Source: an uncultured Ignavibacteria bacterium (GTDB lineage: Bacteria > Bacteroidota > Ignavibacteria > Tepidaquicellales > OLB5). From it: a stretch of DNA of 61,666 bases. The notes under the pieces are model-generated. The model did no database searches, was not told where the DNA came from, and saw nothing but the letters and a program-made list of their open reading frames with translations. Positions 206 to 1,078 of the stretch are shown piece after piece. The stretch lies in contig CALMYL010000014.1 of the NCBI GenBank assembly GCA_937873695.1, positions 1 through 61,666 of the forward strand, given 5' to 3'. The translations under genes and the position numbers were made by a program. The stretch's first letter is position 1; each line of letters starts with the position of its first letter.

Positions 206-273
206 ATGTGATTTTAGGTAAAATTTCGTAACTTGAAGGACTCCGAATATAATGGTATATCCGCATGAAATAA

Positions 274-342
274 TTATGGGTGAAGCAGCTGGTATCCGCC
301 GACTGGCGGATCATAACCCGGAAAAGTAATCTCGTTTGAAAA
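274..342 (+). pseudogene. Decayed initiator tRNA (copy 1) carrying an inserted hairpin
   Basis: The stretch from 278 matches the D-arm of the intact tRNA-fMet at 1006-1078: GGGTG, one change, then AGCAGCTGGTA. After GGTA a hairpin ATCCGCC-gact-GGCGGAT (294-311) replaces the segment leading into the anticodon arm. The match then resumes with TCATAACCCG, which contains the CAU anticodon. A degenerate T-loop (GTTTGAA) follows, and the acceptor 3' strand is missing. No acceptor stem can form, so this cannot be a working tRNA. The GIY-YIG start codon follows directly. Confidence 0.85.
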
Positions 343-597
343 ATGTTCTTAGTTTATGTATTGTATTCTGAAAATTTTGATAAAATTTATATTGGAATGA
401 CTTCTAATCTTGAGCAGAGGTTATTATCCCATAATGAACTTTCAAAGAAGGGTTGGACTATAAAATTCAGACCATGGAAGATTGTTTATAAAGAGAGTTT
501 TAAGTCTAAACAAGAAGCTTTAAAAAGAGAGAAAGAATTAAAGAGTTTTCGGGGCAGGGAATTCATTCGAAATCAAATTTTAGGTAAAATTTCGTAA
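343..597 (+). CDS. Small GIY-YIG nuclease-family protein (copy 1)
   Basis: The 84-residue protein is a stand-alone GIY-YIG domain (UPF0213/YhbQ-like). Visible motifs are Y5-V-L and Y16-I-G18, the family Arg at R26, H30 with N31, and a conserved Glu at E58 in EALKRE. These are the expected metal-dependent nuclease residues, so it may be active. No DNA-recognition domain is fused. There is no Shine-Dalgarno sequence; the ATG abuts the T-loop remnant of a decayed tRNA-fMet. A TATAAT box lies at 248-253. The last codons run into the shared 50-bp block that begins the next unit. The cellular role of this family is unsettled; a homing-like or repair role is inference. Confidence 0.85.
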   Translation: MFLVYVLYSENFDKIYIGMTSNLEQRLLSHNELSKKGWTIKFRPWKIVYKESFKSKQEALKREKELKSFRGREFIRNQILGKIS

Positions 598-639
598 CTT
601 GAAGGACTCCGAATATAATGGTATATCCGCATGAAATAA

Positions 640-708
640 TTATGGGTGAAGCAGCTGGTATCCGCCGACTGGCGGATCATAACCCGGAAAAGTAATCTCG
701 TTTGAAAA
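640..708 (+). pseudogene. Decayed initiator tRNA (copy 2) carrying an inserted hairpin
   Basis: This is identical to the copy at 274-342, offset by 366 bp. It has the D-arm match, the inserted ATCCGCC/GGCGGAT hairpin, and a retained CAU anticodon followed by ACCCG. The acceptor 3' strand is lost. It lies between the first GIY-YIG ORF and the second. Confidence 0.85.
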
Positions 709-963
709 ATGTTCTTAGTTTATGTATTGTATTCTGAAAATTTTGATAAAATTTATATTGGAATGACTTCTAATCTTGAGCAGAGGTTATTATCCCATAA
801 TGAACTTTCAAAGAAGGGTTGGACTATAAAATTCAGACCATGGAAGATTGTTTATAAAGAGAGTTTTAAGTCTAAACAAGAAGCTTTAAAAAGAGAGAAA
901 GAATTAAAGAGTTTTCGGGGCAGGGAATTCATTCGAAATCAAATTTTAGGTAAAATTTCGTAA
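709..963 (+). CDS. Small GIY-YIG nuclease-family protein (copy 2)
   Basis: The protein is identical residue for residue to the one at 343-597, as part of the 366-bp tandem repeat. All GIY-YIG motif residues are intact, so both copies could be functional. A TATAAT box lies upstream at 614-619, and the ORF ends inside the 50-bp block that precedes the intact tRNA-fMet. Complete identity implies a very recent duplication or gene conversion. Confidence 0.85.
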   Translation: MFLVYVLYSENFDKIYIGMTSNLEQRLLSHNELSKKGWTIKFRPWKIVYKESFKSKQEALKREKELKSFRGREFIRNQILGKIS

Positions 964-964
964 C

Positions 965-985
965 TTGAAGGACTCCGAATATAAT
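965..985 (+). promoter_or_regulatory. Candidate promoter for tRNA-fMet
   Basis: A perfect TATAAT at 980-985 lies 20 nt before the mature tRNA 5' end at 1006, which would leave a leader of roughly 10-15 nt for RNase P. A -35 element is not convincing. The same box occurs at 248-253 and 614-619 ahead of the two decayed tRNA copies, so it was duplicated with the 366-bp unit and could drive the GIY-YIG genes. Confidence 0.45.
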
Positions 986-1005
986 GGTATATTTGTTGAT
1001 AATAT

Positions 1006-1078
1006 CGCGGGGTGGAGCAGCTGGTAGCTCGTCGGGCTCATAACCCGAAGGTCGGAGGTTCGAATCCTTCCCCCGCTA
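1006..1078 (+). tRNA. Initiator tRNA-Met (CAT)
   Basis: A complete cloverleaf can be drawn. Acceptor CGCGGGG pairs with CCCCGCT except at position 1-72, where C faces T. The D-arm has AGCAGCTGGTA. The anticodon stem TCGGG/CCCGA holds loop CTCATAA, and the T-loop is TTCGAAT. The unpaired first acceptor position and the three G-C pairs next to the anticodon loop are the classic initiator marks. CCA is not encoded. A rho-independent terminator follows at 1095. Confidence 0.97.

Follow-up and report, generated by a model that had tools for sequence, protein, structure and literature searches.

The window analyzed here, 61,666 nucleotides in length, is the entire contig C14 of genome G000 (3.78 Mb, 30 contigs), and carries, near its start, a repeat array beside an initiator tRNA gene. 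Two 366-bp units on the forward strand (211..576 and 577..942) share 100% identity, and each consists of a promoter segment, a hairpin-split partial copy of tRNA-fMet and a GIY-YIG gene. A third copy, comprising the 50-bp promoter segment only (943..992, +), leads into the intact tRNA-fMet (CAT) of initiator type at 1006..1079 (+; ARAGORN; Rfam RF00005, 63.8 bits). All 50 bp are identical to the corresponding part of the units, in agreement with the initial annotation, which had described a third partial unit running into the intact tRNA with the same spacing. TATAAT boxes were read directly at 248..253, 614-619 and 980-985 (+), and the distance from each box to the following tRNA or tRNA-like segment is equal in all three copies. 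The 50-bp promoter segment is present as a single copy at the empty fMet site of a congener (G005). Downstream of tRNA-fMet lies a terminator-like stem with a T-run (CCCGTC/GACGGG-TTTTTT; 1095..1118, +; read directly), and alaS comes after the tRNA. In the stretch upstream of the units (1-205), an 82-bp repeat occurs twice (95% identity) together with a GCTGAACC..GGTTCAGC palindrome; similar palindromes are also found 5' of the fMet locus in G005 and G011.

The two GIY-YIG genes (343..597 and 709..963, +; PF01541) are identical and encode 84 aa, with the final codons of each falling inside the promoter repeat of the following unit. They are the sole ORFs of the 366-bp units, in which no integrase or recombinase gene was found. 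Group I introns with homing endonucleases are known from tRNA-fMet, tRNA-Leu and tRNA-Ile (PMC3984707), and likewise tie a nuclease gene to particular tRNA genes. The identity of the units with such introns had been rejected in the initial annotation and is rejected here as well: Rfam detects tRNAs only and no intron, the tRNA is uninterrupted, and the non-coding part amounts to only ~110 bp per unit.

The partial tRNA-fMet covers nt 5-47 of the tRNA by alignment (278..327 in unit 1 and 644..693 in unit 2, +). Its alignment score against tRNA-fMet is 22.7; the highest score among 2000 Markov-shuffled units was 16.6, and among 323 real windows of 366 bp from this contig it was 13.9. A search of the whole genome with the tRNA-like segment returned only the two units and the intact tRNA-fMet (E=0.5). 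The shuffles and the genome search rule out a chance resemblance; the possibility raised in the initial annotation, that such a match is equally common away from tRNAs, did not hold. Inside the partial copy lies a perfect hairpin, TCCGCCgactGGCGGA (TCCGCC-GACT-GGCGGA; 295..310 and 661..676, +). A hairpin of this kind is expected 0.01 times per window, and its stem recurs in fMet-linked copies of other classes. The initial annotation had thus correctly recognized two identical 366-bp units with a TATAAT box, a tRNA copy and a GIY-YIG ORF, but its view of the copy as merely decayed does not stand, given the perfect hairpin and a build that is conserved in relatives.

The 84-aa protein matches PF01541 with 63 bits (cut-off 22.6) and displays the features of the GIY-YIG superfamily, namely the domain and the catalytic Tyr, Arg and Glu; Y5, Y16, G18, R26, H30 and E63 are invariant across the five proteins aligned. 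Family proteins of 77-90 aa are hardly more than the GIY-YIG domain, and a DNA-binding domain outside it was not found in the 84-aa protein. The closest solved relatives are UPF0213/URI (YhbQ-like) proteins (PDB 1zg2, 1ywl), which belong to the same small fold family, and profile similarity extends to SLX1. Between species, the nuclease dN/dS is 0.06-0.2 where measurable; judged from these substitution rates, the nuclease genes are under purifying selection (dN/dS ~0.1).

The opposite end of the contig (61315-61666) harbors a second site that combines a tRNA, a GIY-YIG gene and a partial tRNA, all on the reverse strand. Here, tRNA-Gly(tcc) (61615..61666, -), orthologous to that of L084, is truncated by the contig end. 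A GIY-YIG gene of 77 aa (61377..61610, -) lies directly 3' of it, followed by the 3' part of a tRNA-Gly (61315..61376, -) with the hairpin TCCCGC-GAA-GCGGGA (61349-61363), just before rpmG. Genome G000 contains eight solo GIY-YIG genes, six of which are of the tRNA-linked type. Two of these lie at fMet, tRNA-Gly, tRNA-Ile(tat) and tRNA-Leu(caa) have one each, and the sixth is found at a contig end beside a partial tRNA-Cys. The remaining two (L001 and L006) are located far from tRNAs. In addition, nuclease-free arrays of partial tRNAs with duplicated terminators occur at Val, Ala, Cys, Ser and Arg tRNAs. These loci (L018, L022, L033, L040, L032 and L014) involve tRNA-Val, Cys, Ala(ggc), Ser(gct), Arg(acg) and Ala(tgc; within an rRNA operon), and some of them carry a twin hairpin, TCCCGAAGGGA-CTCCTTTGGAG, placed exactly in the T loop. 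At L037, tRNA-Leu(taa) (1470-1557) lies ~130 bp from a GIY-YIG ORF of ~590 aa (1687 onward), which is probably uvrC and whose closeness to the tRNA is probably a coincidence.

In order to place the two sites of the window in context, we compare them with congeneric genomes. The search for empty fMet sites proposed in the initial annotation revealed a series of alleles between tRNA-fMet and alaS: the site is empty in G005 (94% identity), holds one unit in G011 (95%) and two units in G000. The G011 unit is of the same length as those of G000 and identical to them at 349/366 positions, while the two G000 units match at 366/366, so that their duplication or homogenization was recent. The tRNA-Gly/rpmG site is empty in G005, G006 and G009 and filled in G010 and G011; G002 has a 5' partial copy only, G010 a 5' copy and the GIY-YIG gene, and G011 the order 5' copy, tRNA, GIY-YIG gene and 3' copy, with outer flanks near-identical to those of G005. 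Presence/absence polymorphism with clean empty sites, a feature of homing endonuclease genes, is thus found at both fMet and Gly. Another feature of such genes, a target that is altered or protected in the filled allele, is not seen at these sites, where the hairpin alters the partial copy only. Filled and empty congeners do not differ in the intact tRNA or its near flanks, and insertion therefore leaves the target in the working gene unabolished, unlike in classical homing. From the sequences compared, the presence pattern of the fMet unit within the genus fits inheritance with precise loss as well as it fits homing.

The second unit of the window could also be an assembly error, since the two units do not differ at any position, the contig begins 210 bp upstream and several G000 contigs end in arrays. 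We consider this unlikely. Identical or near-identical tandem units exist in the single-contig genomes G220, G183 and G026, so that the arrays are not assembly errors in general, and G011 independently has one unit of equal length. Arrays of [GIY-YIG + partial tRNA] reach five units in L228 (a single 4.84-Mb contig) and three in L278 (a single-contig genome), with eight units in L237 and four in L261; identical tandem pairs include that of L105, in a record titled complete genome. Tandem amplification as known for SegB-type genes is accordingly present (2-8 units), with the amplified part being a partial rather than a full tRNA. The G000 contigs C1, C4, C14, C22 and C23 end at or inside tRNA repeat arrays, and it is therefore probable that short-read assemblies break there and under-count the elements.

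Two arrangements of the units were observed, both of which place the nuclease gene between the working tRNA and its partial copy. Form D has the order intact tRNA, terminator, GIY-YIG gene, 3' tRNA part and terminator. Form U, to which the fMet locus of the window belongs, consists of a 5' tRNA part with promoter, the GIY-YIG gene, a promoter and the intact tRNA. Both forms are present around one tRNA-Asp in L108.

The family profile has matches in 50 of 59 relatives and, across the phylum, in 132 of 198 genomes, counts that include matches to a sister subfamily. We retrieved the 60 best loci among relatives of the same order and class, 60 loci from the wider phylum and, as a control, 20 weaker-scoring loci of the sister subfamily. 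An intact tRNA is located nearby in 47/60, 52/60 and 1/20 of these loci, respectively. Altogether, 99 of the 120 family loci have an intact tRNA within ~0.8 kb, most of them within 150 bp, whereas we estimate the chance expectation for a genome of this size with ~45 tRNAs at ~1-2% within 500 bp. The nuclease gene thus stands outside an intron and beside a candidate target gene, as free-standing homing genes do. The GIY-YIG gene and the nearest tRNA share a strand in all linked loci (99/99). In the first set, 13 loci are tRNA-less, and 11 of them still contain a tRNA fragment that scores above every control. Linkage was also seen in 11 of 12 loci on named contigs, among them Bacteroidales, Flavobacteriales, Muricauda, Maribacter and Chlorobiota. 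Together with the allele series and the arrays of single-contig genomes, this linkage bears out the proposal of a mini-element that amplifies at a tRNA while one working copy is kept. The sister subfamily (L001, L006 and L140-L158) is not tRNA-adjacent; L001 and L006 share a C-terminal NPDW motif, and at least one locus, L148, is a tandem pair as well.

The element is not restricted to fMet, and the sequences place it in a phylum-wide family with isotype-specific lineages. On a maximum likelihood tree of 76 proteins, the linked isotype requires 18 changes, compared with 53.5 after shuffling and 60 for host labels. The ten Leu-linked proteins all fall into a single clade (97/83), and another clade (99/94) unites all five Ile-linked proteins. 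On a tree of 143 proteins, isotype requires 42 changes vs 106 shuffled, and an fMet/Met-linked clade with 99% SH-aLRT spans several classes. Many forks of these trees are unresolved, the proteins being short. The trees also had predictive value: Met fragments were subsequently found at L237 and L229, and in weaker form at L117, all loci without a detectable tRNA, and an Asn fragment at L094, which is placed near Asn-linked proteins. According to these phylogenies, the proteins cluster by tRNA isotype rather than by host. Support for horizontal gain is thin: the Asp lineage of G010 appears to group with another family (AU p = 0.024), a moderate result of a test chosen after seeing the tree, and the remaining pattern is compatible with descent and loss.

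A perfect non-tRNA hairpin (stem of at least 6) is present in 96 of 135 partial copies, compared with 16 of 135 matched control windows; a minority of the copies has none. Its position and stem track the isotype across genera and classes. The fMet stem TCCGCC..GGCGGA is located at nt 38 in form D and nt 21 in form U, the Asp stem TCCCGA..TCGGGA at nt 51, the Ile stem TCCCGCC.. at nt 27 and the Gly stem ATCCCG.. at nt 27-29. Across ten Asp copies, the six outermost pairs are invariant and the inner pairs vary with compensation (96% paired), resulting in a covariation score of 0.172, above all 500 shuffles. While TCCGCC-type palindromes number only seven in the genome, four of them in tRNA arrays, 82 palindromes of the TCCCGC type are dispersed through it. 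The hairpins are therefore not purely element-specific and their origin may be general; their fixed place in the partial copies argues against mere decay. Dispersed TCCCGC..GCGGGA members within the window are located at 23392-23407, 23548-23563 and 43778-43793.

The dispersed palindromes, along with the GIY-less arrays at Val, Ala, Cys, Ser and Arg tRNAs, would be expected if the units were a passive by-product, in which tandem tRNA duplicates decay, palindromes land in them and GIY-YIG genes occupy safe spots. This is improbable in our view, as it leaves unaccounted for the isotype sorting of the proteins, the fixed position of the hairpin across classes, the constant orientation and the avoidance of tRNAs by the sister subfamily.

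Isotype-specific protein lineages and the single orientation would also suit a tRNA-directed RNase that acts on the cognate tRNA or the partial transcript, with the hairpin-bearing partial tRNA serving as a decoy or control RNA in the manner of an RNA antitoxin. The conserved hairpin with its compensating changes speaks for such a role, and so does the Asp 3' copy, which together with its terminator forms a stable RNA fold (z -3.8). The fMet partial copy, by contrast, folds no better than shuffles (z -0.17), and an RNA-level function was rejected for it. Furthermore, the partial copies, each of which lacks one half of the tRNA (5' or 3'), cannot fold as a tRNA, UPF0213/URI and the DNA structure-specific SLX1 are the closest relatives of known structure, and the arrays and patchy presence appear selfish. 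We regard an RNase with a decoy as rather unlikely, at about the level of a passive origin or marginally above it.

The similarity to structure-specific SLX1 may instead point to a mobile unit directed by DNA structure, in which the hairpin would be the site of the element itself, cut by the GIY-YIG enzyme as a cruciform or single strand, comparable to integron attC sites or IS200/IS605 ends. Units would move or be multiplied by way of this site, and nuclease-free arrays would be non-autonomous copies. The fixed places of the hairpins and a stem kept through compensating changes are consistent with this, as is the existence of nuclease-free arrays. Hairpin-less partial copies, similar palindromes away from tRNAs, and the fact that a free or circular unit was not seen count against it, and we give such a mechanism little, though slightly more, credence than the RNase.

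We favor, by a modest measure of confidence, the interpretation that the units are minimal selfish elements, each specific to one tRNA gene, which act like free-standing GIY-YIG homing endonucleases such as SegB. We posit that the nuclease breaks the tRNA gene or its partial copy, and that recombinational repair between partial and intact tRNA would insert the element beside the gene by intronless homing; the same repair could expand it into tandem units, as for SegB. Within the partial copy, the hairpin may label the nuclease site or put it out of action. Since it is this copy that would form the border of the element on the outside, and not the working gene, the essential tRNA would always survive intact. 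If the nuclease gene is read from the tRNA promoter, this would also explain its constant orientation. Self-protection is the main difficulty of this model, given the unchanged tRNA and flanks of filled alleles; it may be that the copy with the hairpin is the only one that matters, or that the element's cutting of its own locus is tolerated and repaired. In our judgment, purifying selection and patchy presence fit a selfish cycle better than a host function. A wider proposal, which we put forward more tentatively and with some doubt, is that of phylum-wide mobile units of ~0.3-0.4 kb, in which an isotype-specific mini GIY-YIG protein and a hairpin-split partial tRNA act together. The fragment would then be a functional site, as DNA structure or RNA, rather than debris, and GIY-less arrays would be non-autonomous offspring.

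SegB of phages T4/T6 is a free-standing GIY-YIG homing endonuclease encoded beside tRNA genes (PMC13096335, PMC2988022), and has been shown experimentally to drive tandem amplification of a tRNA/nuclease segment via recombination (PMC13096335). The units described here resemble it in the GIY-YIG gene adjoining tRNA genes, in tandem amplification, presumably by recombination, and in being free-standing and intronless. However, SegB is phage-borne with no isotype preference reported, whereas the present family is chromosomal, consists of a 77-90 aa catalytic domain only, is isotype-specific and is flanked by hairpin-split partial tRNAs. Other repeats and insertions at tRNA genes share fewer features with the units. 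The 178-bp repeats of E. coli tyrT reportedly repeat a tRNA 3' fragment together with a small ORF and rtT RNA, and are similar in that they lie in tandem 3' of a tRNA and each include a piece of it; to our knowledge, they contain no nuclease gene and are confined to a single locus. The double-hairpin elements of fungal mitochondria are short GC-rich hairpins. The hairpins described above are likewise short, GC-rich, in some cases twinned and set into tRNA loops, but they occur in partial tRNA copies beside a nuclease gene and not in functional genes. Integrative elements in tRNA genes use integrases. Such elements and prophages, with att sites in tRNA genes, measure 9-23 kb in one study (PMC9897764), in contrast to units of ~330-370 bp without an integrase, with a hairpin in the partial copy and on either side of the tRNA.

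Chromosomal tRNA-linked GIY-YIG units were not described in the literature that we searched, which left most subscription papers outside its scope. The family is thus apparently undescribed, with its novelty being provisional. If our interpretation is correct, a large bacterial group hosts a selfish element that ranks among the smallest known to encode a protein and is specialized on the most conserved and indispensable genes. This would account for many annotations of 'GIY-YIG nuclease family protein' and of pseudo-tRNAs, and would apply the phage-based SegB model to chromosomes as well. It would also provide natural isotype-matched pairs of nuclease and target, with which to study how an 84-aa enzyme could locate one tRNA gene. 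The arrays are also places where assemblies break, and G000 contigs terminate in them.

An origin from phages or plasmids was considered and rejected, as only weak matches with <60% identity were obtained, along with one viral contig without a tRNA nearby. In the two matches inspected in detail, from a Rhizobium phage (L304) and from Azospirillum (L305), no tRNA feature adjoins the GIY-YIG gene. In the latter, plasmid AZO_p3 of Azospirillum lipoferum, the GIY-YIG gene (1489-1782) lies between sufB and sufC, a placement reminiscent of free-standing homing genes that occupy intergenic positions in protein operons.
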